Source of the DNA: Rhodobacter sp. 24-YEA-8
Lineage (GTDB): Bacteria > Pseudomonadota > Alphaproteobacteria > Rhodobacterales > Rhodobacteraceae
Assembly (NCBI RefSeq): GCF_900105075.1
Contig: NZ_FNSK01000006.1
Location: 62,001-126,000 of the forward strand
DNA: 64,000 nt
Direction of reading: 5' to 3'
The position numbers and the translations under genes were made by a program. The number at the start of each line of letters is the position of its first letter. The stretch's first letter is position 1. The notes beneath the pieces were generated by a model. That model ran no database searches and was not told the DNA's origin. It saw nothing but the letters and a program-made list of their open reading frames with translations. Positions 1,111 through 29,210 of the stretch are shown one piece after another.

Positions 1111-2082
1111 TCAGACCTTAAGGCCCAGCCTGTCGGCAATGGTCCCGAGCAGGCCTTTGCGGAAGACGAGGATGCAGGCCATGAAAACCAGCCCCTGCAT
1201 GATGGTGACCCAGGCTCCGAAAGCGGCCAGCTCATTTTGCATCCAGATCACCAGCAGCGCGCCGACCAGCGGTCCGAAGAATGTCGCCATGCCACCGATC
1301 ATCACCATAAGCACCACCTCGCCCGACATGCCCCAATAGACGTCGGTGAGGCTCGCCAGCTGAAAGGAAATCGCCTTCAGTCCGCCCGCCAGCCCGGCGA
1401 AACCGGCGGCCAGAACGAAAACTGCCCATTTGTAGCGGTCAACCCGGTAGCCCAGCGAGATCGCACGCGGTTCATTGTCGCGGATCGCCCGCAGGACCTG
1501 ACCAAAGGGCGACCAGGTGATGCGGTAGAGAGCCAGCACCGCGACGAAAAACACGACAGCGACAAGGGCATAAAGCGCCATATCGCTTTGCAGCGAGAAG
1601 AGGCCGAACAACGCCCGGCGCGGCACATTCTGAATGCCATCCTCGCCGCCGGTAAACGGAGCCTGGAGCGAGAAGAAGTAGATCATCTGGGCGAAGGCGA
1701 GCGTCACCATGGCAAAATAGATGCCCTGGCGGCGCACGCAAAGTGCGCCAAACACCGCCCCGGTCGCAACGGCCACCAGCACCGCAAAGCCAAGTGCGAA
1801 TTCGGGGGTGAAACCCCAGACTTTCGCGGCATGGGCCGCAGCATAGGATGACAGGCCGAAATAGGCGGCATGACCGAAAGAAAGCAGCCCCAGATTGCCC
1901 AGCATCAGATTGAGCGACAGGGCAAACAGTCCGAAGCAGAGGACTTTGATCACCAGCAAAGGATAGGCCAGGAAGGGCGCCACAGCGACGATCACCAGCA
2001 AAAGCAGGAAAAGGTTGCGATGGCTTGCGCTCATGCCAGGCAGGCCGGCAGCGGTGATCTCGGGTTGCGTGGTCATGTGCAA
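1111..2082 (-). CDS. livM: Branched-chain-type ABC transporter permease LivM
   Basis: 323-residue polytopic membrane protein of the LivM family, the second permease of a hydrophobic amino acid/organic acid (HAAT) importer. After a short polar N-terminus it shows serial hydrophobic helices, with the family motif around LMLGNLGLLSFGHAAYFG in the first third and the EAA-like loop RDNEPRAISLGYRVDRYK that contacts the ATPases. Start could be at 2082 or two codons later at 2076. It is the last gene of the run SBP-livG-livF-livH-livM, 42 bp after livH. Given the adjacent beta-oxidation genes and shared operators, the substrate is probably a carboxylic acid of that pathway rather than an amino acid (inference). 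Confidence 0.9.
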   Translation of the reverse strand: MHMTTQPEITAAGLPGMSASHRNLFLLLLVIVAVAPFLAYPLLVIKVLCFGLFALSLNLMLGNLGLLSFGHAAYFGLSSYAAAHAAKVWGFTPEFALGFAVLVAVATGAVFGALCVRRQGIYFAMVTLAFAQMIYFFSLQAPFTGGEDGIQNVPRRALFGLFSLQSDMALYALVAVVFFVAVLALYRITWSPFGQVLRAIRDNEPRAISLGYRVDRYKWAVFVLAAGFAGLAGGLKAISFQLASLTDVYWGMSGEVVLMVMIGGMATFFGPLVGALLVIWMQNELAAFGAWVTIMQGLVFMACILVFRKGLLGTIADRLGLKV

Positions 2083-2124
2083 TGCTCCTGCGGTCTGAAG
2101 GGCCTTGGTTTCTGACGGCCCATC

Positions 2125-3009
2125 TCAGGCCTGCTTGCCGAACAGCCCGGCAGGGCGGATCAGAAGGACGATTGCCATGATCACGAAGATCACCGTCGTC
2201 GAGGCCTGTGGCCAGAAGACCTTGGTCACCCCTTCTATCAGCCCCAGCATAAAGCCGGTCAGGATCGCGCCCGAGATCGACCCCATGCCGCCGATCACCA
2301 CCACCGCAAACACCACGATGATCAGGTCAGACCCCATCATCGGATTGACCGAATAGATCGGCGCGGCGAGGACACCGGCAAAGCCGGCAAGGGCGACACC
2401 AAAGCCGTAAGTCAGTGTGATCAGCAAAGGCACATTGATGCCAAAGGCCTCGGTAAGCGCCGGTTTTTCGGTTGCCGCCCGCAGCCAGGAGCCAAGCCTC
2501 GTCTTCTCGATCACCAGCCAGGTCACCAGACAGACCGCCACTGAGGCGAGGATCACAAAGGCGCGCGAGGCCGGCAGAAACATGAAGCCGAGATTATACC
2601 CGCCCTGCAAAGCCGCGGGCATCGAATAGGGCAGGCCGGTCGCGCCATATTGATTGCGAAACAGCCCGACAATCACCAGCCCCATGCCGAAGGTCAGGAT
2701 CATGCCATAGAGATGGTCGAGATCATAAATCCGGCGCAGGATCAGCCGTTCGATAACACAGCCCAGCAGACCGATGGTCAGCGGCACCACAAGCAGCGCC
2801 AGCCAGTAATTCATCGCAAAGTGATCCAGCATCAGCAATGCGCCAAAGGCCCCCATCATGTAAAAGGCGCCATGGGCGAAATTTACGATGTTCAGCAGGC
2901 CAAAGATGATCGCAAGCCCAAGGCTGAGGATCGCGTAAAATGCACCATTGATCAGACCCAGCAGGATCTGGGTCGACAGCAGCTGCAGTGGTATTCCGAA
3001 TATAAGCAT
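2125..3009 (-). CDS. livH: Branched-chain-type ABC transporter permease LivH
   Basis: 294-residue permease of the LivH family with about eight hydrophobic segments. It opens with MLIFGIPLQLLSTQILLGLI and has the typical GLLNIVNFAHGAFYM motif after the first helices. The cytoplasmic loop around TRLGSWLRAATEKPALTEAFG is the ATPase-contact region. It starts 9 bp after livF stops, consistent with translational coupling. It pairs with the livM product to form the transmembrane channel. Confidence 0.92.
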   Translation of the reverse strand: MLIFGIPLQLLSTQILLGLINGAFYAILSLGLAIIFGLLNIVNFAHGAFYMMGAFGALLMLDHFAMNYWLALLVVPLTIGLLGCVIERLILRRIYDLDHLYGMILTFGMGLVIVGLFRNQYGATGLPYSMPAALQGGYNLGFMFLPASRAFVILASVAVCLVTWLVIEKTRLGSWLRAATEKPALTEAFGINVPLLITLTYGFGVALAGFAGVLAAPIYSVNPMMGSDLIIVVFAVVVIGGMGSISGAILTGFMLGLIEGVTKVFWPQASTTVIFVIMAIVLLIRPAGLFGKQA

Positions 3010-3018
3010 GTTTGCGCC

Positions 3019-3738
3019 TCAGACCCCCAGATATGTGCTGAGCTTCGCCATGTTGTCGGCGATTTCCGTGCCAGGGATCATGTCGACCACCTGACCGTGA
3101 TCCATCACGTAATGGCGGTCGGCCACCGACGCCGCGAAGTGGAAATTCTGTTCGACCAGCAGCACGGTATAGCCGCGCTCTTTCAGCTGGCGGATGGTGG
3201 CGCCGATCTGCTGCACAATCACCGGAGCCAGGCCCTCGGTCGGCTCATCAAGCAGCAAAAGCCGGGCGCCGGTGCGCAGGATCCGGCCGATCGCCAGCAT
3301 CTGCTGTTCGCCGCCTGAAAGCCGGGTGCCCTGGCTCCGGCGGCGTTCGGCGAGGTTCGGGAAAAGCGTGTGGATCTCGGCCACGCTCATGCCACCGCTG
3401 GCCACCACCGGCGGCAGCATCAGGTTCTCTTCCACGGTCAGGCTGGAATAGATGCCGCGATCTTCCGGGCAAAAGGCGATCCCGGCCCGGGCGATGGCCC
3501 GGCTGGAGGCGCGGCCCAGCTCTTTTTCCCGCAGCCGGACAGAACCCTGCCGGCGTTTGATCATGCCCATGATGGATTTGAGCGTGGTGCTTTTGCCGGC
3601 GCCATTGCGGCCCAGCAGCGTCACCACCTCGCCTTCGCGGATGTCGAAACTGACCCTGTGCAGCACATGGCTTTCACCATACCAGGCCTCAAGATCCGTG
3701 ACCTGAAAATGCGGGTTCTGAGAAAGCCTGTCAGCCAT
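3019..3738 (-). CDS. livF: Branched-chain-type ABC transporter ATP-binding protein LivF
   Basis: 239-residue ATPase. Walker A is LLGRNGAGKST (residues 41-51), the signature is LSGGEQQMLAIGR, and Walker B is ARLLLLDEPTEGLAP. I chose the ATG at 3738 (MADRLSQN). The same frame remains open to 3876, but that extension lies inside livG, is rich in Arg/Ser and has no family resemblance. The chosen start overlaps the livG stop by 8 bp, as is usual for livG/livF pairs. Together with LivG it powers the LivHM permease. Confidence 0.92.
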   Translation of the reverse strand: MADRLSQNPHFQVTDLEAWYGESHVLHRVSFDIREGEVVTLLGRNGAGKSTTLKSIMGMIKRRQGSVRLREKELGRASSRAIARAGIAFCPEDRGIYSSLTVEENLMLPPVVASGGMSVAEIHTLFPNLAERRRSQGTRLSGGEQQMLAIGRILRTGARLLLLDEPTEGLAPVIVQQIGATIRQLKERGYTVLLVEQNFHFAASVADRHYVMDHGQVVDMIPGTEIADNMAKLSTYLGV

Positions 3739-4489
3739 TGGGCACCCCGATATAGGCATTGATGACCTGCGGGTCTTTGGAAACCTCGTCATAGCTGCCC
3801 TCTGCCAGGATGGCGCCGCGTGCGAGGACGGTAATGCGGTCGCAAAGCGTGGCGACCACCGAGAGATTATGCTCAACCATCAGCACGGTGCGGCCGACAG
3901 CAACCCGCGCAATCAGCGCGGTGATGCGCGCGACATCCTCCTGCGTCATGCCGGCCATCGGCTCGTCGAGCAGCAGGACTTTGGGATCCAGCGCCAGCGT
4001 GGTGGCGATTTCCAGCGCACGTTTGCGCCCATAGGAAAGATCGCTGGCCTGTTCCCGGGCGAAGCCTGTCATGCCGACCTGATCCAGCAGGTCCATTGCC
4101 TCATCTTCGAGGCGCGCCAGCACCTTCTGGCTGCGCCAGAAATCCCAGCTGTCGCCATGGCGGCGCCGCTGCAGGGCAATGCGCACATTTTCAAGCGCCG
4201 TCATCGAGCCGAACACCGCCGAAATCTGAAACGAGCGCACAAGACCCATCCGCGCGATCACCTCCGGCTTCAGGCGGGTGATATCTCGGCCATCATAGGT
4301 GATGGTGCCGGCACTTGGAGTCAGGAACTTGGTCAAGAGATTGAAACAGGTGGATTTTCCGGCGCCATTCGGGCCGATCAGGGCATGGACGGAACCGCGC
4401 TGAACATTCAGGTTCACCGCATCCACGGCACGGAACCCTTTGAAATCCTTGGTCAGACCCGTCGCTTTCAGGACAATATCATCGGACAT
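3731..4489 (-). CDS. livG: Branched-chain-type ABC transporter ATP-binding protein LivG
   Basis: 252-residue ATPase with Walker A GPNGAGKST (residues 39-47), signature LSYGRKRALEIA and Walker B VLLLDEPMAGM. The LSYG signature in place of LSGG is normal for LivG. It follows the binding-protein gene after a 72-bp gap that contains a 9-bp-stem hairpin (see 4525-4552), and overlaps livF by 8 bp. Confidence 0.93.
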   Translation of the reverse strand: MSDDIVLKATGLTKDFKGFRAVDAVNLNVQRGSVHALIGPNGAGKSTCFNLLTKFLTPSAGTITYDGRDITRLKPEVIARMGLVRSFQISAVFGSMTALENVRIALQRRRHGDSWDFWRSQKVLARLEDEAMDLLDQVGMTGFAREQASDLSYGRKRALEIATTLALDPKVLLLDEPMAGMTQEDVARITALIARVAVGRTVLMVEHNLSVVATLCDRITVLARGAILAEGSYDEVSKDPQVINAYIGVPNG

Positions 4490-4561: not shown

Positions 4562-5752
4562 TTATTTCACCAGCGGGCAGGCGCTGTCTGCGAGCGGGCG
4601 GAAGGCTTCGTCACCGGGGACGGTTGCGAGAATATTGTAGTAATCCCAGGCGCCGGTGGATTCCGCCGGGGTTTTGACCTGGGCGAGATACATATCATGC
4701 ACCATGCGGCCGTCCTCGCGGATCACGCCATTCTCGGTGAAGAAATCATTGACCGGCGTTGCCTTCATCTGCGCGATCACCGGACCGGCGGCATCGGTGC
4801 CGGTTTCAGCGATGGCATTCAGATAATGGGTCACGGCCGAATAGACCCCGGCCTGCGACATGGTCGGCATCGCCCCGTGCTTTTCAAAGAACCGCTGCGA
4901 CCAGGCGCGGCTTTCATCGGTGCGATCCCAGTAGAAGCCGGTGGTCAGATAGAGACCCTGAGCGGAATCGAGACCCATCGAATGCACGTCGGTCAGGAAG
5001 ATCGCAAGACCGGCCAGCTTGGCCTGCATGGTCAGACCGAACTCCTGCGCCTGCTTCAGCGAGTTGATCGTATCGGTGCCGCCATTGGCGAGGGCGATCA
5101 CATTGGCCCCGGCCGAAGGGGCCTGCAGCAGATAGGTCGAGAAATCGGCCGTGTTCAGCGGTGCGATCGCGGTGCCGACAACCGAGGCACCGGCGCCTTC
5201 AACCACCGTGGTCACATCGGCCTGCATGGTATGGCCGAACGCATAGTCGGCGGTCAGGAAGAACCATTTGTCACCCCCCTGGGCAACCATGGCCTTGCCC
5301 GTCGAAACCGCCACCGCATAGGTGTCCCAGGTCCAGTGAATGCCGTTGGGCGAGCAGTTCTCATTGGTCAGGCTGGCAGTGCCCGCACCCGAGACGATCA
5401 GCAGCTTGTCCTTTTCGCGCGCCAGTTCCTGAACCGCCAGCACCACCGAAGAATTCGGCACGTCAACGATCAGATCGACGCCTTCGACATCATACCAGCG
5501 CCGTGCAATCTGGGTGCCGATGTCAGCCTTGTTCTGGTGATCTGCACTGACCAGCTCGATCTTGCCGAGCCGGTCGCCGAAATCCGCAATCGCCATCTCA
5601 GCTGCGACCACAGAGCCGGTTCCCGCCAGGGAAGAGAACACCCCGCTCTGATCGGTCAATACGCCGATTTTGACCGAGTTATTTGAAATTTCAGCTGATG
5701 CAGCAGTGGCACCTGCGGCCAGCAATGCCAGCGCAGAAACGAAAATCCTCAT
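4562..5752 (-). CDS. Periplasmic substrate-binding protein of the Liv-type ABC importer
   Basis: 396-residue type I periplasmic binding protein (LivK/Peripla_BP_6 class). A clear signal peptide opens the chosen start, MRIFVSALALLAAGATAASA followed by EISNN, with cleavage predicted after ASA. The body begins with VKIGVLTDQSGVFSSLAGTG, the typical first strand. The frame extends upstream to 5812, but the ATG at 5752 has a strong GGAGG ribosome-binding site about 7 nt ahead and puts the signal peptide at the N-terminus. First gene of the importer operon. A perfect IclR-type palindrome lies 75 bp upstream (5827-5841). The ligand is unknown; the context suggests an aromatic, alicyclic or dicarboxylic acid. 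Confidence 0.92.
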   Translation of the reverse strand: MRIFVSALALLAAGATAASAEISNNSVKIGVLTDQSGVFSSLAGTGSVVAAEMAIADFGDRLGKIELVSADHQNKADIGTQIARRWYDVEGVDLIVDVPNSSVVLAVQELAREKDKLLIVSGAGTASLTNENCSPNGIHWTWDTYAVAVSTGKAMVAQGGDKWFFLTADYAFGHTMQADVTTVVEGAGASVVGTAIAPLNTADFSTYLLQAPSAGANVIALANGGTDTINSLKQAQEFGLTMQAKLAGLAIFLTDVHSMGLDSAQGLYLTTGFYWDRTDESRAWSQRFFEKHGAMPTMSQAGVYSAVTHYLNAIAETGTDAAGPVIAQMKATPVNDFFTENGVIREDGRMVHDMYLAQVKTPAESTGAWDYYNILATVPGDEAFRPLADSACPLVK

Positions 5753-5826
5753 GAGCTTCCTCCCTCTCATTGCGGACAATATGGCCGCTCTTTGCCCCGC
5801 CAGCATCACCACAATGCGGCAAAGCG

Positions 5827-5841
5827 TTCCGCTCTGCGGAA
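5827..5841. promoter_or_regulatory. IclR-type operator 1 (TTCCGC-TCT-GCGGAA)
   Basis: Perfect 15-bp palindrome: 6-bp arms TTCCGC and GCGGAA around TCT. It lies between the SDR stop (5846) and the binding-protein start (5752). It matches operators 2-4 at 11081, 13465 and 14363, each close upstream of a unit of the same pathway. The likely binder is the IclR regulator encoded at 11110-11853 (inference). Confidence 0.75.
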
Positions 5842-5845
5842 GACC

Positions 5846-6625
5846 TCAGAGCAGCCCGCGGGTCAGACCGCCATCCACCGCGATATTCTGGCCGGTGATA
5901 TATCCGGCATGGACCGAGCACAGGAATGCGGCGATCGGACCGAAGTCTTCCGCCGTGCCCAGGCGCTGCGCCGGCACCGATCCGGCCATGGCAGCGGCGG
6001 CCTCGGTCTCGGTGATTCCCTCGCGTTTTGCCTTCGCGCGGATGACACGATCAAGCGCGCCGGTCGCCATCAGACCGGGCAGGACATTGTTCACTGTCAC
6101 CCCCTGCGCGACGGTCTCACGCGCCAGTGTCGCCATCGCACCGGTCAGGCCGGCCCGAACCGAATTGGCCAAGGCCATATTCGGATAAGGTTCTTTCACC
6201 GCGAAAGAGGTGATGTTCACGATGCGGCCAAAGCCGTCCGCAATCATATCCGGCAACAGCATCTGGGTGGCCGATATGGCCGAAAGCATATTGGTCTCCA
6301 GCGCATGGCGCCAGGTCTCGGTATCATGATCGGTGAACCGCCCGGTGGGCGGCCCGCCGGCATTGGTCACCAGGATCGAAATCTGTCCCGCCCTGGCCTG
6401 TGCCTCCGCGATGACCCGGGCGGTGACGCCCGGCTGCGACACATCGCCCTGCACGAAAAAGGCGCCATGGCCAAGCCCGGCCGCGGCGGCGGCGCCTGCC
6501 TCGGCGTCGCGGCCATTCAGCACGACCCGCACCCCCGCCGCCGCCAGATGGCGCGCGGTTGAATAGGCAAGACCCTTGCTGCCGCCCAGCACCAGCGCCA
6601 CCCGACCCGAAATGCCCAGATCCAT
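5846..6625 (-). CDS. SDR-family protein lacking the Tyr-Lys catalytic pair
   Basis: 259-residue short-chain dehydrogenase/reductase fold. The cofactor motif is LGGSKGLA (residues 13-20), NAG is at 88-90 and the usual active-site Ser is S140 (NITSF). The YxxxK motif expected 13 residues later is replaced by A153-N-S-V-R157, inside NMALANSVRAGL. A subgroup of SDRs is known to share this kind of change, so it need not be a damaged gene, but classical NAD(P)H chemistry cannot be assumed. The C-terminus AGYITGQNIAVDGGLTRGLL is typical of the family. Last gene of the ligase-crotonase-thiolase-hydratase-SDR operon, 21 bp after the hydratase. Confidence 0.85.
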   Translation of the reverse strand: MDLGISGRVALVLGGSKGLAYSTARHLAAAGVRVVLNGRDAEAGAAAAAGLGHGAFFVQGDVSQPGVTARVIAEAQARAGQISILVTNAGGPPTGRFTDHDTETWRHALETNMLSAISATQMLLPDMIADGFGRIVNITSFAVKEPYPNMALANSVRAGLTGAMATLARETVAQGVTVNNVLPGLMATGALDRVIRAKAKREGITETEAAAAMAGSVPAQRLGTAEDFGPIAAFLCSVHAGYITGQNIAVDGGLTRGLL

Positions 6626-6646
6626 GATTTCCTCCCGCTTTGCTGT

Positions 6647-7429
6647 TCAGCGGCCCGTATAGCTGGGCCGTCTTTTTTCGGTGAAGGCGGCCATGCCTTC
6701 AAATTTATCCTGCGTCGAGAACAGAATCTGCAGCGCCTTGCGCTCCAGCGCGAGTGCCGCAGAAAGCGAGGCATCCTGACCATGCAGGATAACCTCTTTG
6801 ACCTGATTGACCGCGATAGGTGGCAGGCCGGCGATCCGCCGTGCCAGCCCCATGGCGTGGTCGAAGACCTGATCGTCTTCGACAACTTCGCTGACCAGTC
6901 CCATTGCCGAGGCCTCGTCTGCATCAATGATCTCGCCGGTCAGGCAAAGCCGCATCGCCTTGAATTTACCAACCGCGCGGGTCAGCCTCTGGGTGCCACC
7001 TGCGCCTGGCATGATACCGACCTTAACCTCTGGCTGACCGAAGCGTGCGGATTTTCCGGCGACAATGATATCGGCATGCATCGCAAGCTCCATACCGCCG
7101 CCAAGCGCAAAGCCATTGACCGCTGCGATCACCGGCACCGGGCAGCGGGCCACCGCTTCCCAGAGCCGCTCGGTATGGCGCAGATACATATCGACACTGT
7201 CGATCTGCGCCATATCGGCAATATCTGCCCCCGCCGCGAAGGATTTCTCATCGCCGGTCAGCACCACCGCGCGCAGGGTGCCTCCATCGGTAAGGCCTTC
7301 AAAGATTGTCGCAAGCTGGCGGCGCAGCGGCATGTTCAGCGCATTCAGCACTTCGGGACGATTGAGACGCAGCACGACCACCGCACCCAGATCCTCGACC
7401 AGCACCAGATCATTTTTCTCTGTCATCAT
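6647..7429 (-). CDS. Enoyl-CoA hydratase, PaaF-like
   Basis: 260-residue crotonase-fold enzyme (259 if translation begins at the second Met, 7426). Both catalytic glutamates of true hydratases are present, in ALGGGMELAM and FGQPEVKVGIMPGAGGTQRL. Overall it resembles 2,3-dehydroadipyl-CoA hydratase PaaF of phenylacetate degradation, ending in FTEKRRPSYTGR. Inferred reaction: hydration of a 2,3-enoyl-CoA to a 3-hydroxyacyl-CoA, feeding the dehydrogenase at 11890-13383 and the thiolase at 7426. Its start overlaps the thiolase stop by 4 bp, so the two are probably translationally coupled. Confidence 0.9.
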   Translation of the reverse strand: MMTEKNDLVLVEDLGAVVVLRLNRPEVLNALNMPLRRQLATIFEGLTDGGTLRAVVLTGDEKSFAAGADIADMAQIDSVDMYLRHTERLWEAVARCPVPVIAAVNGFALGGGMELAMHADIIVAGKSARFGQPEVKVGIMPGAGGTQRLTRAVGKFKAMRLCLTGEIIDADEASAMGLVSEVVEDDQVFDHAMGLARRIAGLPPIAVNQVKEVILHGQDASLSAALALERKALQILFSTQDKFEGMAAFTEKRRPSYTGR

Positions 7430-8634
7430 ACTGCCTCAAGCCCGAGGGCAATGCCCTGACCGACACCGACGCACATGGTGGCCAATGCGCGGCCGCTGCC
7501 GGCCTTGTGCAGCCCGAGCGCAGCGGTGAGGGCCAGACGCACGCCCGACATCCCCAGCGGATGGCCAAGGGCAATTGCACCACCCAGCGGATTGACATGT
7601 GCGGCATCATCGGGAAGGCCAAGCTGGCGCAGACAGGCAAGGCTTTGCGCGGCAAAAGCCTCATTCAGCTCGATCCGGCTGAAATCCGCGATGGACAGCC
7701 CCAATCGCGCCATCAGTTTCTGACTGGCCGGAACCGGCCCCATTCCCATGATCGCCGGCTCGACCCCGGCAGTTGCCAGCCCGGTGATCCGTGCCATCGG
7801 CGTCAGGCCGAAGCGTTTTACCGCTGCTGCCGAGGCGACGAGCACCGCCGCCGCCCCGTCATTGACGCCGCTGGCATTGCCTGCGGTGACCGAACCCCCC
7901 TCGCGGAACGGGGCTGGCAGTTTTGCCAGCGCCTCCAGCGTGGTCGGGCGCGGATGTTCGTCGCGACTGAACACCACCGGATCACCTTTGCGCTGTGCGA
8001 TGCTGACCGGGAGGAGTTCATCGTCAAAGCCACCCGCCGCCTGGGCGGCCGCCACCCGCTGCTGGCTGCGCAGGGCGAAAGCGTCCTGATCCTCGCGGGA
8101 AATTCCAAAGCGTCCGGCGACATTCTCGGCCGTCTCCGGCATGGAATCGACACCATATTGCCGTTTCAGCACCGGGTTAACAAAGCGCCAGCCAATTGTG
8201 GTGTCGTAGATATCGGCCTGCCGCGAGAAGGCGGTTTCAGCCTTGCCCTGCACGAAGGGCGCGCGTGTCATGCTTTCGGTGCCCGAGGCGATAATCACCT
8301 CGGCATCGCCCGCAAGAATGGAGCGCGCCGCGAGCCCAACCGCATCCAGCCCCGAGCCGCAAAGCCGGTTCAGCGTGGTCCCGGGCACGGATTGTGGCAG
8401 GCCAGCCAGCAGCACCCCCATCCGGGCCACGTCGCGATTGTCTTCGCCCGCCTGATTGGCGCAGCCGGTGAACACATCGTCAATCGCCAGCGGGTCCAGG
8501 CCCGGCGCGCGTGCCATGACCTCTGCCAGCACAAGCGCCAGCATATCATCGGGCCGGATTGTCGCCAAGGCGCCGCCAAAGCGCCCGATCGGGGTCCGAA
8601 CCCCGGCGCAGATAAAAGCTTCTCTCATGGTCAC
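7426..8634 (-). CDS. Thiolase, 3-oxoadipyl-CoA thiolase-like (PcaF/PaaJ)
   Basis: 402-residue thiolase. The nucleophilic Cys is C92 in [12 protein letters not shown]. The other catalytic residues are H358 in [14 protein letters not shown] and C388 in MCVGVGQG. The stretch [17 protein letters not shown] is characteristic of PcaF/PaaJ thiolases rather than generic acetyl-CoA acetyltransferases. Expected reaction: 3-oxoadipyl-CoA (or a close homologue) plus CoA gives succinyl-CoA and acetyl-CoA. It begins 7 bp after the preceding crotonase gene and overlaps the next hydratase by 4 bp. This gene is the main reason to think the pathway ends in a dicarboxylic CoA ester. Confidence 0.92.
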
Positions 8635-8641
8635 ATGATCC

Positions 8642-9451
8642 TCAGAGCGGGCAGTCCTGATCGAAATTCGGGCGTCTCTTTTCCTTCAGAGATGCCAGCC
8701 CTTCGCGCGCATCCGGGCCACAAAAGCCCATGAATTCCAGCGCCAGCGAAGTGTCGAAGGTGGGGCCGGCCATGCGCAGCCAGTTGTTGAGCGCATATTT
8801 TGTCCAGCGGATCGCGCTTGGCGAGCCCTTGGCCAGTTTGCGCGCAACCTCCAGCGCCTTGTCATGCAATTCGTGATCTTCGGTGACCAGCGAGATCAGC
8901 CCGATCCGCTCAGCCTCTTCGCCTGAAACCGATTCACAGAGCAGCAGATAGTATTTGGCCTTGGCAAGACCGCAGAGCAGCGGCCAGACGATAGCCGCGT
9001 GATCACCCGCAGCCACGCCAAGCCTTGTATGGCCATCAATGATGCGCGCGGTCTTTGAGGCAATCGAGACATCGGCCAGCAGACCGGCCACCAGACCGGC
9101 CCCGACCGCCGGCCCCTGCATCGCAGACACAATCGGCTTTGAGCAGTTGATGATATTGTAGACCAGATCGCGCGCTTCCTTCCACACCCGGGTGAGCGTG
9201 GTGAAATCCTCGGTCATCTCTTTGACGAGATCGAGATCGCCCCCCGAAGAGAAGGCCTCGCCCGCGCCGCGAATGATGACGCTGCGAACATCATCGGCAG
9301 CGTCAATATCGCGCCAGACCCGGCACAGCTCGCCATGCATGATCCGGTCGGCCGAGTTCAGGCGGCCCGGATTGTCCATGGTAATGCGCAGGATGCCGGC
9401 ATCCGGCCAGTCGAATTTCAGCCGCTTATAGGTGGTGATGTCGAGGCTCAT
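8642..9451 (-). CDS. Crotonase-fold protein without the hydratase Glu pair
   Basis: 269-residue enoyl-CoA hydratase/isomerase superfamily member. The oxyanion-hole segments are present (AFSSGGDLD and QGPAVGAG). The two Glu residues of hydratases are absent: the first region reads [11 protein letters not shown] and the second reads [12 protein letters not shown] (residues 139-150). An Asp at about residue 150 could act as in isomerases or hydrolases of the fold, so I do not call it a hydratase. I chose the ATG at 9451 (MSLDITTY), which overlaps the CoA ligase stop by 4 bp; the open frame to 9586 lies wholly within the ligase gene. Confidence 0.85.
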
Positions 9452-10980
9452 ATGTTCTTCTCCCGGCCCGCCCAAAAGGGCTCTCGCAGTAGGTTCTTCT
9501 GGATTTTGCCAATCGGCGTCTTGGGGAAACTTTCGACGAAAGTGACAATGCGCGGACGTTTGAACCGCGCCAGGGTCTTCTCGCAATGCGCGACAACGGT
9601 TTCGGTTTCCAGCACCGCCCCGGCCTTGAGCAGGATATAGGCAGCCGGCACCTCACCCCATTTATCATCGGGAATGCCAAAGACCGCGCATTCCGCCACG
9701 GCGTCGAGGCCGAAAATCGCGTTCTCGATCTCTTTGGGATAGATGTTCTCACCACCCGAAATGATCATGTCTTTCGAGCGGTCAACGAGGGTGACAAAGC
9801 CCGCCTCGTCCATCACCGCCAGATCGCCGGTCCAGCCCCAGCCATGCCGGAAGAACTTCGCGGTCTGTTCCGGCTCGTTGTAATATTCCAGCATGACATT
9901 CGCGCCGCGTGAAACCAGCTCGCCGATCACCCCCGGCGCCACGGCATTGCCATCGGGGTCCACGACCGCAAGATCGACATTATAGGCCTGCTGGCCGATG
10001 GAACCGAGACGCTCGGGCAGATGCCAGTGGCCAAGGGTGGTGATCACCCCCACTTCCGACTGACCATAGATCTGGGTCAGCCTGATCGCGGGCAGCTTTT
10101 CCATCAGATCGCGCTGTACCCAATCGGGCATCGGGGCGCCGGCAAAGGCAAGCTTTTCCCATTGCACATAATTCGAGGCCTGGAAATTCGGGTCCGAGAC
10201 CACCATTGCGACCTGGGTCGGCACCATGAAACAGGCGGTCATTCCGGTGCGCTGCGCCATATGCGCAAAGTCCTGCACGTCCCATTTGGTCAGGAAAGTG
10301 CAGGTCGCCCCGGCCAGCACTGCCGGCTGAAACATGATGTTCAGTGCCGCGACATGGAACAGCGGGGTGACAATCCCCACCACATCGCGTTCCTGGATAT
10401 TCTCGTGATGCATCACCGTATGCGCGGTGGTGATGCGGTTGCGATGGCTTGCCAGCACCCCCTTCGGCCGCCCCGTGGTGCCGCCGGTATAGGTCATGCA
10501 GAAGGGATCATCCTCGTGGATCTCCACTTCGGGCACATGATCGGGCTGATCCGCGATCAGGGCCTGGAAATCATGCGCACCGGGCTGCGCGGTGCCGAGG
10601 CTGATAAGGTGACGGATCTTTGGCAGTGACTGCGCCGCCTCGGCGACACGGGCGGCAAAGACATCTTCATAGACCAGAATTTCGACATCGGCCTTATCCA
10701 GCACATAGGCCAGCTCTTCCGCCGCATAGAGCACGGAGATATTGACGATCACCCCGCCGGTGCGGGCGGTGCCGAAAAACACGCTGCCATATTCGATGCG
10801 GTTGCGGCTGAGGATGCCGACCTTGCCGCCCTTGCCAAGACCAAGGCCCAGAAGGGCATGGGCAAAACGACTGGCCTCCCGGTCCAGATCGCCATAGCTG
10901 ATGGACCTGTCCTGCCACAGAATGGCGCGCTTTTCCGGAAAGCGCTCGGCTGAGCGCCGCAACATATCACCGGTGAGCAT
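9448..10980 (-). CDS. AMP-dependent acyl-CoA ligase
   Basis: 510-residue ANL-superfamily adenylating enzyme. The P-loop is [12 protein letters not shown] (residues 163-174), followed by QIYGQSE (about 305), the hinge region [22 protein letters not shown], and the C-terminal catalytic lysine motif [12 protein letters not shown]. It activates a carboxylic acid to its CoA thioester with ATP, the entry step of the encoded pathway. The acid is not identifiable from sequence. First gene of a five-gene operon, divergent from the IclR gene, with 129 bp between the two start codons. Confidence 0.9.
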
Positions 10981-11003
10981 ATCCCCTCCAGGTTACTCCG
11001 AAC

Positions 11004-11015
11004 CCGCATTTGCGG
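11004..11015. promoter_or_regulatory. Secondary palindrome in the ligase/iclR divergent region
   Basis: CCGC-ATTT-GCGG, an inverted repeat whose core half-sites match the IclR-type operator but with a 4-bp instead of a 3-bp spacer. It sits 24 bp upstream of the ligase start, opposite the better site at 11081-11095. It may be a weaker second site for the same regulator; support is limited. Confidence 0.35.
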
Positions 11016-11080
11016 ATTTCCCTTGCGCCGGAGACTGGATTTTCATCCGGCATTCTGCAATGCCATAGGCAGGGAATTCA

Positions 11081-11095
11081 TTTCGCAGAGCGGAA
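11081..11095. promoter_or_regulatory. IclR-type operator 2 (TTTCGC-AGA-GCGGAA)
   Basis: Matches the 15-bp consensus with one mismatch (TTTCGC for TTCCGC). It ends 14 bp before the iclR start at 11110, a position suited to autoregulation, and also lies 101 bp upstream of the divergent CoA ligase start. Confidence 0.7.
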
Positions 11096-11109
11096 TACTG
11101 GAGCCAGGG

Positions 11110-11853
11110 ATGTCGCAGGAAGATCGTCAGTTTGTCGAAGCATTCGCCCGGGGGCTGCAGTTGTTCGAGGCGCTGTCCAAACAGAAAAAGCCGATGTCGA
11201 ACAGTGATCTGTCAAAAAGTACCGGCCTGCCGCCTTCGACCATCAGCCGGCTGACTTATACCGCTATGCGGTTGGGATATCTGCGCCACAGCGAAACCGG
11301 CCGCAGCTATGAACTGACCCCGAAAAGCCTGAATCTCGGCTATTCGGTGCTGACCGGATTTGCCCTGATCGACCGTGCAACGCCGTTGCTGAAGGTGCTG
11401 GCCGAAAAAACCGGCCAGACCGCGGCGCTTTGTGTGCGCGATGGGATGTATCTGACCTTTGTCCAGGTGGTGTCCGGCTCGGATATTCTGGCGGTGCGCT
11501 TTGCAGTGGGCGGGCGGCTGCCGATTGCCACTTCGGCGGCCGGGCCTGCCTATCTCTCGATCCTGCCCGAGAAAGAGCGGCGCCAGCTTGCCAGCCGGAT
11601 CCGTGGCCAGCTCACCCAGCAAAATGGCAATGTCACCGCCTTTAATGCGGCATTGGAGGCGGCCTGCAAGGACGGAGTCTCTTTCAGCCGCGACACCTGG
11701 CGCCGTGGCATCAGCGCGGTATCGGTCGGTATCAGCACCGCGCATGAACAGGCCGCGATTACGGTGCCCTTTGCCACCGGGTCGATCTCGGTTGCCAATA
11801 TGCGCGGTATCATTGCCCCCATCCTGCGCGAAACCGTGCAGGAACTGCTGTAA
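11110..11853 (+). CDS. IclR-family transcriptional regulator
   Basis: 247-residue regulator with an N-terminal winged helix-turn-helix (about residues 15-75, recognition region LPPSTISRLTYTAMRLGYL) and a C-terminal IclR effector domain (YLTFVQVVSGSDILAVRFAVG, ATSAAGPAYLSIL). I prefer the ATG at 11110 (MSQEDRQF). The frame opens earlier at 11023, but that extension would overlap the operator at 11081-11095 and adds residues not seen in IclR proteins. It is divergent from the catabolic operon and surrounded by four copies of one palindrome, so it is the likely local regulator of uptake and breakdown genes. The effector is probably the substrate or a CoA intermediate (inference). Confidence 0.9.
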   Translation: MSQEDRQFVEAFARGLQLFEALSKQKKPMSNSDLSKSTGLPPSTISRLTYTAMRLGYLRHSETGRSYELTPKSLNLGYSVLTGFALIDRATPLLKVLAEKTGQTAALCVRDGMYLTFVQVVSGSDILAVRFAVGGRLPIATSAAGPAYLSILPEKERRQLASRIRGQLTQQNGNVTAFNAALEAACKDGVSFSRDTWRRGISAVSVGISTAHEQAAITVPFATGSISVANMRGIIAPILRETVQELL

Positions 11854-11857
11854 AGGC

Positions 11858-11888
11858 GGCGCCGGCTGCGGTCCCGGCGCCCTTTTTT
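11858..11888 (+). terminator. Rho-independent terminator after iclR
   Basis: GGCGCCGG (11858-11865) pairs perfectly with CCGGCGCC (11874-11881) across an 8-nt loop, followed by C and six T residues (11883-11888). It lies between convergent iclR and the 3-hydroxyacyl-CoA dehydrogenase gene, whose stop is at 11890. Confidence 0.85.
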
Positions 11889-11889
11889 A

Positions 11890-13383
11890 TTACAGGCTGC
11901 GGATATCGAGCCCCAGCGTCGCGCGCCGCCGCAGCCAGGCGCTCGGGCGGTAACGGTCATCCCCGCTGAGCGCCTGCATATTGCGCAAAATCGTCAGCAT
12001 CCGCGTCGCGCCAACCCGATCCACCCATTCCAGCGGACCGCAGGGGTAATTCATCGCAAGCCGCATGGCCTTGTCGATATCACCAGGAGCGGCAAGCCCC
12101 ATCTGCGCCATTTCACAGCCGAGATTGGCCACTGCCGCAACGATCCGTTGCGCGACAAAGCCGGTGGAATCGGCAATCGCGGTGACCCTGCGCCCGCTTG
12201 CACTCACCGCCGCAGCCACCGCATCGCGCACCGCCGGATCGGCGCCGACCGTGGTCATCAGCACCACCCGCCGCGTGCTGTCAAAGGCCAGATCAACCGC
12301 CACCAGCCTCGTGGCCGGCAGGCCGAGCCGGGCTGCATGACCCGCCAGATCTTCGCCCACCGGGAAGGCCAGCACCGGGCTGGTACCATCATCCCCTGCC
12401 GCGACCCTGCAGCCGAGAGAGGCCGCGAAATCACGCAGCTCGGCCAGATCTTCGGCCAGAACCACCTGCTGTGCCGGCGCGGCGGTGCTGATGAAATCTG
12501 CCGACGGCTGTTCGGCGCCATCGTGATAGGCGTAAAAGCCCTGCTGCGTCTTGCGGCCCAGCTGGCCGGTCTGCAGCAGATAGCGGTGATAGGTGGTCGA
12601 ACGCAGGCGCGGTTCGGCGAAATAGCTCTGATGCAGGAACTCGCAGACGGTGAAATTCACATCCATTCCGGTCAGATCCATCAGCTCGAACGGGCCCATG
12701 CGGAAATCGCAGCAGTCGCGCATGATCGCGTCGATTTCAGCCGGGCTGGCCACCCCCTCCTGCAACGCCATCAGCGCTTCGGTCGGATAGGCCCGCCCGC
12801 CATGGTTCACAAGAAAGCCGGGCGTGTCGCGCACCTCAACCGGTTCCTTGCCAAGATGGCGTGCGACCGCGAGCAGCCGCTCCATCGTTTCACGGCTGGT
12901 GCGCGGGCCGGGGATCACCTCGACCAGTTTCATCAGCGGCACCGGATTGAAAAAATGCAGCCCCGCGAAACGCTCCGGATGTTTCAGGTCGCGCGCGATC
13001 ACCCCGATCGGCAGCGAGGAAGTATTGCTGGCGATCAGCGCCCCGGGGGCCAGAAGATCCTCCAGCCGGGCAAACAGAGCCTGTTTTGCGGCGGGGTCTT
13101 CGATGATCGCTTCGACCACCAGATCGCAATCTGCCAGTGCATCCGGGCTGTCGGCGGCGATCAGCGCGCCCGCAAGGGCGTCATATTGACCCTGGGAGAG
13201 CTTGCCGCTGCTGACCCGCTTTGCAGCGCGGGCGAGAATTGCCGCAATGGCGCTGGCAGCCGCCCCCTGCCGCAGATCGGTCAGGATGACGGGAATGCCA
13301 CTTGCAGCGGCGGTTTCCGCAATCCCCGCCCCCATCGCGCCGGCGCCGGCCACACCAATTTTCAACGGGAGTTCCGCTGCCAT
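11890..13383 (-). CDS. 3-hydroxyacyl-CoA dehydrogenase, PaaH-like
   Basis: 497-residue NAD-dependent dehydrogenase. The N-terminal Rossmann domain has VAGAGAMGAGIAE (residues 11-23). It is followed by a first 3HCDH C-terminal domain (GFLVNHGGRAYPTEALMAL), a degenerate Rossmann-like linker domain, and a second 3HCDH domain (TGFVAQRIVAAVANLGCEMAQ, NYPCGPLEWVDRVG). This double-domain layout and length match PaaH/PaaC, the 3-hydroxyadipyl-CoA dehydrogenase. Expected reaction: 3-hydroxyacyl-CoA to 3-oxoacyl-CoA, supplying the thiolase. It has its own operator-like site 82 bp upstream (13465-13479). Confidence 0.9.
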   Translation of the reverse strand: MAAELPLKIGVAGAGAMGAGIAETAAASGIPVILTDLRQGAAASAIAAILARAAKRVSSGKLSQGQYDALAGALIAADSPDALADCDLVVEAIIEDPAAKQALFARLEDLLAPGALIASNTSSLPIGVIARDLKHPERFAGLHFFNPVPLMKLVEVIPGPRTSRETMERLLAVARHLGKEPVEVRDTPGFLVNHGGRAYPTEALMALQEGVASPAEIDAIMRDCCDFRMGPFELMDLTGMDVNFTVCEFLHQSYFAEPRLRSTTYHRYLLQTGQLGRKTQQGFYAYHDGAEQPSADFISTAAPAQQVVLAEDLAELRDFAASLGCRVAAGDDGTSPVLAFPVGEDLAGHAARLGLPATRLVAVDLAFDSTRRVVLMTTVGADPAVRDAVAAAVSASGRRVTAIADSTGFVAQRIVAAVANLGCEMAQMGLAAPGDIDKAMRLAMNYPCGPLEWVDRVGATRMLTILRNMQALSGDDRYRPSAWLRRRATLGLDIRSL

Positions 13384-13464
13384 TCTCGCCTCCGCAAGCC
13401 TGTTTCTCTGCTCTCCAGTGACCGCAGGGCGCCCGAAAGGTCAAAGCCAATATCCCCGGCTTCG

Positions 13465-13479
13465 TCCCGCAGAGCGGAA
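13465..13479. promoter_or_regulatory. IclR-type operator 3 (TCCCGC-AGA-GCGGAA)
   Basis: One mismatch from the 15-bp consensus. It lies in the 113-bp gap between the PaaG-like stop (13497) and the dehydrogenase start (13383), centred about 89 bp upstream of the latter. That spacing is almost the same as operators 1 and 4 relative to their genes. Confidence 0.7.
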
Positions 13480-13496
13480 GGACTGCCCCGGCGGGC

Positions 13497-14288
13497 TCAG
13501 CTGCCGCGAAACAGCGCCGGGCGTTTCTCGAGGAAGGCGGTCACCCCTTCGGCATAATCATCACTGAAGCCTGCGGATTGCTGCGCCAGCCGTTCCGCCT
13601 CCAGCTGGCTGTCGAAATCACGCCCGCCGGCCTCCTGGATAAGTGTTTTCATCAGGCCAAGCCCAAGGGTCGGGCCTGCGGCCAGTTTGCCAGCCAGCGC
13701 CCGGGCTTCATCTGCAAGCTCCATATCGGGAACTGACTTGCTGATCAGGCCCAGCTCTGCCGCGCGCGGCGCCGGGATCGTCTCTCCGGTCAGCAACAGC
13801 GCCTTGGCGCGGGCTTCGCCGAGAATTCTGGTAAGACACCAGCTGGACCCGGCATCAGGAACCAGCCCAAGCCTGGAAAAAGACAGTACAAACCTGGCAC
13901 TCTCGCCCGCGATAACAATATCACAGGCCAGGGCTAGCCCAACACCGGCGCCGGCTGCTGCCCCGTTCATTGCGCAGATCACCGGCTTTTGCAGCCGCCG
14001 GAGGGCGCGGATGGTCGGGTTATAAAACCGGCCCAGCGACTGGCCGAGATCGCTGCGCGGCCCCGGCTGGCGGGGATCGCGGTTGTTAAGATCCTGTCCC
14101 GCGCAAAATCCTTTGCCACGTCCGGTCAGGAGCACGGCCCGCACAGCGTGATCTTCAGCCGCGCGCGCAAGGATCTCGCGCAGCCGCAGATGACTTTCTT
14201 CGGTGAAAGCATTCATCCGCTCGGGGCGGTTCAGCTCGACCAGCAGCACACCCTGATCAAGGGACGACAGCACAGGCTCTTGCGACAT
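13497..14288 (-). CDS. Enoyl-CoA isomerase/hydratase, PaaG-like
   Basis: 263-residue crotonase-fold protein resembling PaaG (1,2-epoxyphenylacetyl-CoA isomerase). It has GFCAGQDLNNR (about 60-70), NGAAAGAGVGLALACDI, and LGLVPDAGSSW with D145 at the position of the PaaG catalytic Asp. PaaG enzymes also shift double bonds (3,4- to 2,3-enoyl-CoA), which is the more likely job here, since no ring epoxidase is present. Regulated separately from the neighbouring dehydrogenase, judging by its own perfect operator at 14363-14377. Confidence 0.85.
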   Translation of the reverse strand: MSQEPVLSSLDQGVLLVELNRPERMNAFTEESHLRLREILARAAEDHAVRAVLLTGRGKGFCAGQDLNNRDPRQPGPRSDLGQSLGRFYNPTIRALRRLQKPVICAMNGAAAGAGVGLALACDIVIAGESARFVLSFSRLGLVPDAGSSWCLTRILGEARAKALLLTGETIPAPRAAELGLISKSVPDMELADEARALAGKLAAGPTLGLGLMKTLIQEAGGRDFDSQLEAERLAQQSAGFSDDYAEGVTAFLEKRPALFRGS

Positions 14289-14362
14289 CTCTGGCTCGCT
14301 TTTGCGGATGGGTTCCGGCTTTCAGGGGTGGGGCAAAGCCGATCCGGCTGCAAGATGATGCC

Positions 14363-14377
14363 TTCCGCACTGCGGAA
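14363..14377. promoter_or_regulatory. IclR-type operator 4 (TTCCGC-ACT-GCGGAA)
   Basis: Perfect 15-bp palindrome in the 223-bp intergenic region between the PaaG-like gene (start 14288) and the MocR gene (stop 14512), 74 bp upstream of the former. I see nothing else in this gap. Confidence 0.75.
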
Positions 14378-14511: not shown

Positions 14512-15888
14512 TCAGACCACGGCCCGCATAGCCCCCGCTGGCCGCTGCATCAGCCCGGCCAGCTGCTGCAACCCTTCTTCAAGCACGCCCCGGTCTGGTG
14601 CCACGCCAAGCGAGATCCGCACATGCGCCGAGACATGTTCGCCGGTCGCAAAGGCCGAGGCGGGTACGATCGAGACACCGGCGCGGTCGGCATGTTCGGC
14701 AAAGTCCGTCGCCCGCCAATGCGGCGGCAGGCTCAGCCAGAGGTGATGGCCCTCGGGGTCAGCGCGGAAATCGGCCCCCCGGAAGGCCTCGGCCGCCAGG
14801 GTCTGACGGGTGCGGTTCTCGGCGCGGATCGCGGCGGCGATCTCATCCACCACGCCTTCGCGCAGCCAGCGGGTCGCAAGACTGGCCAGAAGCGGCGGCG
14901 CCATCAGGACAGTCGCCCGCAGAACCGAAGCCAGCCGCAAGGCCCGCGCCGGATCGGGCGCCACGACATAGGCCACCCGCAATGCGGGCGTGACCGATTT
15001 CGACAGCGTGGCCAGATGCCAGGTCAGATCCGGCGCCAGCGCAAGGAAAGACGGCAGCTGTTGGGCGCGCAAAGGCGCATATGGGTCATCCTCGATGATG
15101 GCGACGCTGTATTTGCGCGCGATCTCTGCAATCGCGATGCGCCGCGCCTCGGGCAGGGTGGCGGTTGTGGGGTTGTCGATGCTGGGCGTGACATAGAGCG
15201 CATGCGGCGCCCGCGCCTCGCACAGACGGCGGAAGTCATCGGGGATCAGCCCGCCGGCATCCATCGCAATCGGGTCGATCATCACGCCACGCTGCGCCGC
15301 GCTGGCCTTCAGCCCGGGATAAGTCATCTCGCCGGCGGCGATATGCCCCCCTGGGGGAACCAGCAGATCGGTCAGCGCGGACAGCGCCGACTGCGCGCCG
15401 GCGGTGACCAGCACCCGGTCATGCGACAGCGCCCCATGGCGCCGCGAGAGCCACTGCGTCGCGGCGATCCGGTCTGCCATGCCGCCGCTGCTTTCCTGAT
15501 ATTGCAGGCTCAGCCCGCCACGCGGGCCATTGAGGATCGCAGCCAGCCCCTGCGGGATCAGTTTGCGGAAATCGACCCCCTCAGGCTGAGGCGGGATGTT
15601 CATGCTCAGATCCAGCACCGGCGCGGGCTCGTCGGGGAAGAATTCGGCCGGATCATCGCGCACGAAAGTCCCGCGCCCGGCCTGGGCCGCCACAAGCCTT
15701 CGGCGGCGCGCTTCGTTGAAGGCGCGGGTTACGGTGGTCAGATCAACACCCAGCTGTTCGGCAATGCTGCGCTGTGGCGGCAGCCGCTCGCCCGGCCCGA
15801 TCCTTGCGGCGCGAATATCCGCTTCAAGCGCTTCGACGATGCCGAGATATTTCAGTCTCGCGCCATCGGTGATCCAGGGGGTCCACAT
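14512..15888 (-). CDS. MocR/GntR-family regulator with aminotransferase domain (1)
   Basis: 458-residue fusion of a GntR winged helix (about residues 10-78; [23 protein letters not shown]) and a fold-type I aminotransferase-like domain. The PLP-binding Lys is K297 in [14 protein letters not shown], with IIEDDPYAP and [10 protein letters not shown] around the cofactor site. MocR proteins act as PLP- or amino-donor-sensing regulators. The frame reaches back to a TTG at 15924, but that codon lies inside a palindrome, so I prefer the ATG at 15888 (MWTPWITD). It could regulate the transporter operon at 16338, which is divergent, or itself. Confidence 0.88.
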
Positions 15889-15917
15889 GCTCCGCCTCTG
15901 CTGCCCATGATTGCACG

Positions 15918-15940
15918 CATACAATTTATGTCATTGTATG
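15918..15940. promoter_or_regulatory. Palindromic operator upstream of MocR 1
   Basis: Perfect 8-bp inverted repeat CATACAAT (15918-15925) / ATTGTATG (15933-15940) with a 7-bp spacer, AT-rich in a GC-rich context, 30 bp upstream of the chosen mocR start. Likely site for autoregulation and for control of the divergent unit. Confidence 0.65.
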
Positions 15941-28385: not shown

Positions 28386-29210
28386 TCAGGTTGCCGGGTC
28401 CAGATCGGCCTGTGATCCGGCCTCTGGTGACCCCGCCTCCGGCCCATAGGCCCCCGCGCCCGCGACGCCGCCAAGTGCTGCGGTCATCTCGCGCGCAACT
28501 GCGAGCACCTGAAGCCCGATCCGCACCGTTTCGCGGCTGGCCATCCGTTGCGCCAGCGCCGAGACCGAGATCGCGCCCAGAGGCTCGCCCAGAGGGGACC
28601 AGACGACGGCTGCGATACAGCGCAGCCCGGGGGTGAATTCCTCATTGTCCAGCGCGAAGCCGACACGACGGATGCGGCGGATCTCATCCATGACTTCGGT
28701 GGTGCTGCGCAGGCTGTGGCTGGTCATCGGGCGCAGACCGTGGCTGGCGATCAGGGCTTCGATCGCCGGATCCGGCCAGGTGGCGACAATGGCCTTGCCC
28801 ATGCCGGAATTCATCACCGGCGTGCGGCCCCCGGGTGGCGCGATGGCGCGGATGATCTCGCGGCTTTCGACCTGGGCCACGGTGATCACCTCGCCCTCGG
28901 CCAGGATGCCCAGATTGGCGGTCTCACGGGTCAGATCACGCAGGCGGCGCAGATAGGGGCCGGCGGCGGCGATAAAGCTTTGCCAGCGGGTGAAGGCCAG
29001 CCCGGTGGTGAACGCGCGCTGGCCGATCAGCCAGTGCTGGCCCTGAGGTTCAAGTCGCACGAAATCGCGCTCTTCCAGCGTGGTCAGCAGGCGATGTGTG
29101 GTTGAAGCGGCCAGTCCTGCCTCGCGCGCGAGATCGGAAAGGCGCAGCCCTGCGGGCGCTTTTGACAACAGTTCCAGCAGGAAAAGCGCGCGGTCAACTG
29201 CCTGAACCAT
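28386..29210 (-). CDS. IclR-family regulator (next to malate synthase G)
   Basis: 274-residue IclR protein: N-terminal winged helix (LRLSDLAREAGLAASTTHRLLTTLEERDFV, about residues 20-50) and effector domain (NLGILAEGEVITVAQVESRE, PVMNSGMGKAIVA, GLRCIAAVVWSPLGEPLGAISV). The C-terminus is an Ala/Gly/Glu-rich tail. It is divergent from malate synthase G, with a perfect palindrome TTTTCCAC-ATC-GTGGAAAA in between. It is the likely regulator of glcB, by analogy with IclR control of malate synthase in enterobacteria (inference). Confidence 0.9.
   Translation of the reverse strand: MVQAVDRALFLLELLSKAPAGLRLSDLAREAGLAASTTHRLLTTLEERDFVRLEPQGQHWLIGQRAFTTGLAFTRWQSFIAAAGPYLRRLRDLTRETANLGILAEGEVITVAQVESREIIRAIAPPGGRTPVMNSGMGKAIVATWPDPAIEALIASHGLRPMTSHSLRSTTEVMDEIRRIRRVGFALDNEEFTPGLRCIAAVVWSPLGEPLGAISVSALAQRMASRETVRIGLQVLAVAREMTAALGGVAGAGAYGPEAGSPEAGSQADLDPAT

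Follow-up and report, generated by a model that had tools for sequence, protein, structure and literature searches.

The question raised by this locus is which protein reads a 15-bp palindrome that is repeated four times within 8,551 bp of the genome of Rhodobacter sp. 24-YEA-8. The DNA analysed, referred to here as the window, is a stretch of 64,000 nucleotides (C6:62001-126000) from a 5.01-Mb genome. A motif scan of the window located perfect copies of TTCCGC-N3-GCGGAA at 5827-5841 and 14363-14377, and copies with one mismatch at 11081-11095 and 13465-13479, in agreement with an earlier sequence-only reading of this DNA. There is a good probability that these palindromes are operators of the IclR-family regulator encoded at 11110-11853, and that they define a local, ligand-responsive regulon, which more tentatively would combine activation with autorepression.

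The four palindromes are positioned as regulatory sites might be. All four lie outside called genes, as had been claimed. Three are centred 82, 89 and 82 bp upstream of the start codons of the binding-protein gene (ATG 5752), the PaaH-like gene (ATG 13383) and the PaaG-like gene (ATG 14288), within the range of 82-89 bp given previously. The fourth, at 11081, has its centre 22 bp ahead of the iclR start codon (ATG 11110), beside the divergent CoA-ligase operon as the same reading had it, and this position is compatible with autoregulation. In a survey of IclR regulators, a centre at -22 is the most frequent site position (PMC8222616). The group-1 operator consensus in that survey has the arms TTYCRY-N3-RYGRAA (PMC8222616), which fit at three of the four window sites, the 13465 copy being one base off. 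The spacer is constrained too: when all are written on one strand, the four copies are TTCCGCAGAGCGGAA, TTTCGCAGAGCGGAA, TCCCGCAGAGCGGAA and TTCCGCAGTGCGGAA.

Clustering of the sites was evaluated against the whole genome, with a 15-mer motif that had been picked post hoc. Within the window, the count at up to two mismatches is unremarkable (11 matches against a shuffle mean of 7.19; 12 of 100 shuffles reach as many). The genome contains 48 sites at up to one mismatch, six of them perfect. From the 44 sites outside the cluster, 0.075 would be expected in the 8,551-bp span where four are seen (P 1.2e-6 for at least four), which rules out chance clustering. The cluster sites are also enriched in intergenic DNA, at 4/4 against 4/44 elsewhere (Fisher P 3.6e-4; the 44 were classified from 3-kb stretches for 42, one longer stretch and one in the window). 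Thus, the palindromes stand beyond chance. The sequence-only reading had proposed this genome-wide scan and named equal-quality hits in coding DNA as evidence to the contrary; its clustering is upheld, and part of that contrary evidence was found, as four of the six perfect 15-mers lie within coding genes of contig C1.

We searched relatives for the regulator, using L-numbers for fetched DNA stretches and G-numbers for genomes. The IclR is carried by 3 of 248 family genomes, 2 of 390 in an order sample, 4 of 13 in the genus and 1 of 385 in a class sample, and a second family search with a related query gave 3 of 394; these counts include the genome itself. The family sample of 248 yielded two further carriers beyond the genus, and the order, class and second family searches added none. 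In the genera of the two distant carriers, 1/6 and 1/1 genomes were positive, these being the carriers themselves. In a tblastn search of plasmids, all 1094 records were below 60% identity, with 25 listed at 30-36%. Since G572 is apparently the same assembly as L021, and G565, which matches the L022 coordinates, the same as L022, the carriers represent four independent lineages.

The palindromes are conserved across these lineages. The aligned DNA of L021, L063 and L064 is 95-96% identical to the window and adds little. The Pseudogemmobacter faecipullorum locus L022, with an IclR 78% identical, carries a palindrome in each of the same four gaps; between it and the window, 45 of 48 arm positions are identical, against 45 of 120 positions in the 15-bp flanks (ungapped). 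In L023 (from G183; IclR 52% identical) and L024 (from G214; 49%), a palindrome is retained in the iclR/ligase gap and before paaH. The cluster there adjoins genes dctP, dctQ and dctM of a tripartite ATP-independent periplasmic (TRAP) transporter, and no ATP-binding cassette (ABC) transporter was identified in either 20-kb stretch. A perfect palindrome precedes dctP in both, and L023 has a further enoyl-CoA hydratase/isomerase gene. Thus, the operator is retained while the transporter differs, ABC in one lineage and TRAP in another.

Within the genus, perfect TTCCGCANWGCGGAA matches number 10 in the four carriers, nine of them in the cluster, versus four in the nine non-carriers. Three of the latter four are coding, one of which, in L060, was assigned by translation; the gene caller, trained on 16 window genes, had overlooked an iclR gene in that stretch. 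The fourth lies between an aldehyde dehydrogenase gene and an iclR gene whose product is 34% identical to the window IclR, in G571, a genome without the window-type IclR. This divergent pair (L059:6478-8899) harbors the palindrome TTCCGCTATGCGGAA; a perfect third box stands 5 bp from it, and TTGACG comes next. Because this more distant IclR adjoins both elements, and in view of the genus counts and of paralogs without the site, the DNA code appears common to a branch of IclR proteins, of which the window IclR is the best candidate reader in this genome.

The window protein fits the IclR family, with an N-terminal HTH_IclR and a C-terminal IclR_C domain in 247 aa (family about 250 aa). Its best match among eight families is TIGR02431 (PcaR/PcaU/PobR), at 125.7 bits versus a cut-off of 284.75 and thus outside that subfamily's threshold. 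PF09339 has 20 matches in the genome. Ten of the 19 other matches, those listed, were examined; seven are IclR proteins, 13-24% identical to the window IclR, and none of the seven has its recognition helix. The exact relaxed palindrome is absent from all ten stretches, and one of the seven, L101, has a one-mismatch palindrome. A second IclR-family gene of the window, at 28386-29210 on the minus strand (L097), encodes a protein 22% identical to the first and has no matching palindrome in its 2.5-kb stretch. Because the sites are conserved in three diverged lineages, resemble the published consensus and have no counterpart in site or helix at these seven paralogs, the window IclR very likely reads them, which lends support to what the sequence-only reading had deduced from position.

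A third half-site accompanies some of these palindromes. In L023 and L024, TTYYGCA stands exactly 5 bp off, at 7/7 positions, beside five of six palindromes. In the iclR/ligase gap of both loci it is on the ligase side, before paaH of L023 it is on the side of the gene, and before dctP it lies on the far flank in both loci. The palindrome before paaH of L024 is the exception. The window and L022 have eight palindromes between them; the two that precede the binding-protein genes match 6/7 third-box positions, and the other six at most 4. The 5-bp spacing was noticed first in L023 and L024, and the pattern TTYYGCA-N-NGCRRAA-N5-TTYYGCA was searched for family-wide later. In 394 family genomes it occurs at 17 sites in 14 genomes, and the reversed control gave 0 in every row. 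Sixteen of the 17 are outside called genes in 3-kb stretches (one of these, L080, overlaps a called-gene end in the longer stretch L092), and three are the G183 cluster itself. For eight of the other 14, the fetched DNA (up to 18 kb) includes an IclR gene; with 10 to 35 HTH_IclR matches in each genome, 1.09 such cases would be expected (P 1.8e-5). Among these eight, L084 encodes a distant IclR of 17% identity; with seven counted, P is 1.4e-4. The other seven proteins have a T(I/V)SR(L/I)T-x-T recognition helix as in the window protein, at 27-30% overall identity.

Where a stretch holds no IclR gene, other regulators may use similar sites. Three-box matches at the centres of L083, L085 and L089 precede genes for FadJ-like, electron-transfer flavoprotein and thiolase proteins in stretches without an IclR gene; these may be the sites of a different regulator whose half-sites are similar. 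At L082:9006-9032 in G197, a three-box match lies between PhaC- and polyhydroxybutyrate depolymerase-domain genes, and the 18-kb stretch around it contains no IclR gene. PhaR, which binds TGC-rich DNA close to pha genes, is a possible reader of this site.

These observations bear differently on other explanations of the palindromes. It is extremely improbable that they are repeats that arose by chance, or RNA hairpins, terminators for example. The ends of two sites do lie close to the 3' ends of genes, 4 bp from the SDR gene and 17 bp from the paaG-like gene, and near-matches elsewhere are mostly coding; however, their clustering, the conservation of arms over flanks and the presence of the element before a TRAP gene in relatives all argue otherwise. 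Terminator hairpins were rejected because no run of T follows any stem by eye (no terminator scan was run) and one site lies in a divergent gap. It is also quite improbable that the sites are read by an IclR paralog beyond those compared, or by a regulator from another family, with the neighbouring IclR a bystander. The pairing of palindrome and third box with a 34%-identity IclR in G571 would suit such a reader; the seven dissimilar paralogs and the excess of perfect matches in carriers speak for the window IclR. Several results nevertheless weigh against an assignment to this protein. The comparison covered ten of the 19 other HTH_IclR matches, the DNA fetched around six of the 14 family-wide three-box sites contains no IclR gene, and the third box was undetected at three of the four window sites. 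The arms come closest to the group-1 subgroup WTT-11-AAW, yet the A/T expected at three central and two outer positions is mostly missing: the central bases are TCT, AGA, AGA and ACT, and the outer bases G/G, A/T, G/G and C/A, with A/T on both sides at 11081 only. There is little genome-wide excess over the reversed control pattern (48 versus 36 sites), and 40 of the 44 near-matches outside the cluster are coding. The bare 15-mer is unspecific, and because most near-matches are coding it is no predictor of genome-wide regulon boundaries, a use that had been suggested for it.

The direction of regulation was approached through promoter-like elements, with offsets counted from the palindrome end and offset windows (+21, and +15 to +19) selected after looking at the sequences. 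Of 14 regions, 7 have a TTG starting at +21, namely paaH (window and L022), dctP (L023) and the ligase (four loci); the best offset of any of 2000 shuffles had 5, and none reached 7. Eight of 15 other three-box loci have a TTGAC or TTGAT on the third-box side with its first base at +15 to +19, which 0 of 5000 shuffles reach. Both patterns would place the operators just upstream of a -35 element. As a -35-like TTG stands 21 bp beyond several palindromes, IclR would probably activate the catabolic and transport units. Set against activation, the 14 regions are partly orthologous and not independent, so that the strength is overstated; the -10 elements at the expected spacing are poor matches; and TTG at +21 occurs at none of the 15 other three-box loci, on either side. 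The main rival to activation is repression throughout, in which the same IclR, bound to its sites, blocks transcription of all units until it is released by a metabolite of the pathway. Repressors, activators and dual regulators are all known in the family (PMC8222616), the iclR site is close to its start codon, and the poor -10 matches leave the promoter map and geometry uncertain. Repression of all units is nonetheless doubtful, since where the -35-like TTG is seen, 20 bp downstream of the palindrome end, the palindrome would sit upstream of the polymerase site.

Under the favoured reading, with activation and autorepression, a dimer or tetramer of IclR would read TTCCGCA-N-WGCGGAA upstream of the CoA-ligase operon, the genes for the PaaH-like and PaaG-like enzymes, the ABC transporter and iclR itself. 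Ligand-bound IclR would activate the catabolic and transport units, and IclR would repress its own gene through the site just before its start codon. The regulon would comprise uptake and CoA-linked beta-oxidation of an organic acid to 3-oxoadipyl-CoA. The binding, ligand response, direction and pathway are thus predicted, and the sites, their conservation in relatives and their association with IclR genes are observed. The number of transcription units, put at five by the sequence-only reading, is less certain: the binding-protein, paaH and paaG sites lie in same-strand gaps, and some may be internal promoters. The features of the cluster are listed in Table 1.

Table 1. Genes and palindromic sites of the cluster, in window coordinates.
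Feature	Position	Strand	Evidence
ABC transporter, Liv/Urt type (permeases 1111-2082, 2125-3009; ATPases 3019-3876, 3731-4489)	1111..4489	-	NCBIfam UrtB/C/D/E and Liv, all under curated cut-offs
ABC transporter periplasmic binding protein	4562..5752	-	Pfam Peripla_BP_6, E 4.6e-101; ATG 5752 read from sequence
Imperfect third box TGCCGCA	5815..5821	-	6/7 positions; gene side, 5 bp from 5827 palindrome
Palindrome TTCCGCTCTGCGGAA before binding-protein gene	5827..5841	no strand	Motif scan; same gap in L022
Short-chain dehydrogenase (SDR)	5846..6625	-	Pfam adh_short_C2
Enoyl-CoA hydratase, PRK08138 subfamily	6647..7429	-	398.6 bits vs cut-off 355
3-Oxoadipyl-CoA thiolase, PcaF type	7426..8634	-	TIGR02430, 646 bits vs cut-off 597
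Enoyl-CoA hydratase/isomerase, PRK07327 subfamily	8642..9451	-	462 bits vs cut-off 292; scanned open reading frame (ORF) 8642-9586, start from gene calling
Acyl-CoA ligase	9448..10980	-	Pfam AMP-binding and AMP-binding_C
Palindrome TTTCGCAGAGCGGAA in divergent iclR/ligase gap	11081..11095	no strand	Motif scan; same gap in L022, L023, L024
IclR-family regulator, 247 aa, proposed site reader	11110..11853	+	Pfam HTH_IclR and IclR_C above cut-off (ORF 11023-11853)
3-Hydroxyacyl-CoA dehydrogenase, PaaH-like	11890..13383	-	PRK08268, 573 bits vs 508; TIGR02279 (PaaH equivalog) 427 bits, under 669
Palindrome TCCCGCAGAGCGGAA before paaH-like gene	13465..13479	no strand	Same gap in L022; before paaH in L023, L024
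Enoyl-CoA hydratase/isomerase, PaaG-like	13497..14288	-	TIGR02280, 318 bits, under cut-off 345
Palindrome TTCCGCACTGCGGAA before paaG-like gene	14363..14377	no strand	Same gap in L022 with one mismatch

The iclR gene is divergent from the ligase gene, and the PaaH-like and PaaG-like genes lie beyond iclR on the minus strand. The encoded pathway would turn a CoA-activated organic acid into 3-oxoadipyl-CoA. No acyl-CoA dehydrogenase was found among the 20 scanned window proteins, and searches of solved structures suggested no substrate. PF05138 (PaaA/PaaC) has 0 matches in this genome, which is 100% complete, and the control search was positive in 4 of 14 named genomes; the genome therefore has no phenylacetate epoxidase, and phenylacetate catabolism was rejected. 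A MocR-type regulator with GntR and aminotransferase domains is encoded at 14512-15924 (minus strand), upstream of the paaG-like gene and in the same orientation. In Pseudogemmobacter faecipullorum, a protein with a RuBisCO large-chain catalytic domain is encoded a few kb from the orthologous cluster (L022:17491-18753, minus strand).

Near-matches elsewhere in the genome were considered as further members of the regulon. A one-mismatch copy, TTCCGCACTGCGGCA, at C6:34628-34642 (L016:9929-9943), lies in the gap between a major facilitator superfamily gene and a luciferase-like monooxygenase gene; it was not listed in the near-identical carriers G572 and G574 and was rejected as a fifth site, and a third box is not visible by eye in its flanks. 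Of the other three near-matches outside called genes, one at the start of a ribosomal protein S12 gene was set aside; the same 15-mer occurs in G564 and G566, which lack the window-type IclR. Those between two genes, one a pseudouridine synthase, and between maf and rho were likewise rejected.

Three-box sites are known for PcaU and PobR (Acinetobacter baylyi) and HmgR (PMC8222616). These share with the present system membership of the IclR family, a palindrome with, in the distant relatives, an outer half-site, and, for PcaR/PcaU/PobR, the best-matching NCBIfam model, albeit well under its cut-off; the window neighbour genes also end in a 3-oxoadipyl-CoA thiolase. They differ in the half-site (TTCCGC here, GTTCGA/GTCCGA there), in that no ring-cleavage genes were found among the scanned cluster proteins, and in the third box missing at most window sites. 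Table 1 of the survey also lists odd-length group-1 palindromes for CatR of Rhodococcus erythropolis (core GTACGCAGAGCGTAC, which has CGCAGAGCG in common with the window sites), GenR of Corynebacterium glutamicum (ATTCC-N7(5)-GGAAT) and TphR of Comamonas (core TTGCGCATAGCGCAA) (PMC8222616). These are likened by motif alone and differ in outer bases, pathways and organisms. The enzymes resemble the lower phenylacetate pathway, with PaaF-, PaaG-, PaaH- and PcaF/PaaJ-like proteins in one cluster. They differ from it in that the genome is without PaaA/PaaC, that the PaaG and PaaH equivalog cut-offs are unreached, and that the cluster has an extra CoA ligase, the PRK07327 protein and the SDR. A literature search on the exact half-sites with IclR returned no title on this operator.

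A family branch of IclR might use a modular three-box operator with the third box on either flank, one protein adopting two dimer arrangements within one regulon, and the window lineage having reduced most sites to two boxes. This extension is rather unlikely. If true, the natural series of two- and three-box sites would allow a direct test of the proposed alternative dimerization of IclR.

Though well supported, the regulation proposed here is of an ordinary bacterial kind, and it leaves the general view of IclR regulation unchanged. Within the family, an apparently rare IclR group gains a concrete putative operator, a predicted regulon and a testable architecture. With two-box as well as three-box sites in one ortholog group, the idea of alternative dimerization could be tested (PMC8222616). 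Finally, an operator that is the same before an ABC transporter in one lineage and a TRAP transporter in another clearly illustrates how regulation can be conserved where the transporter is not.

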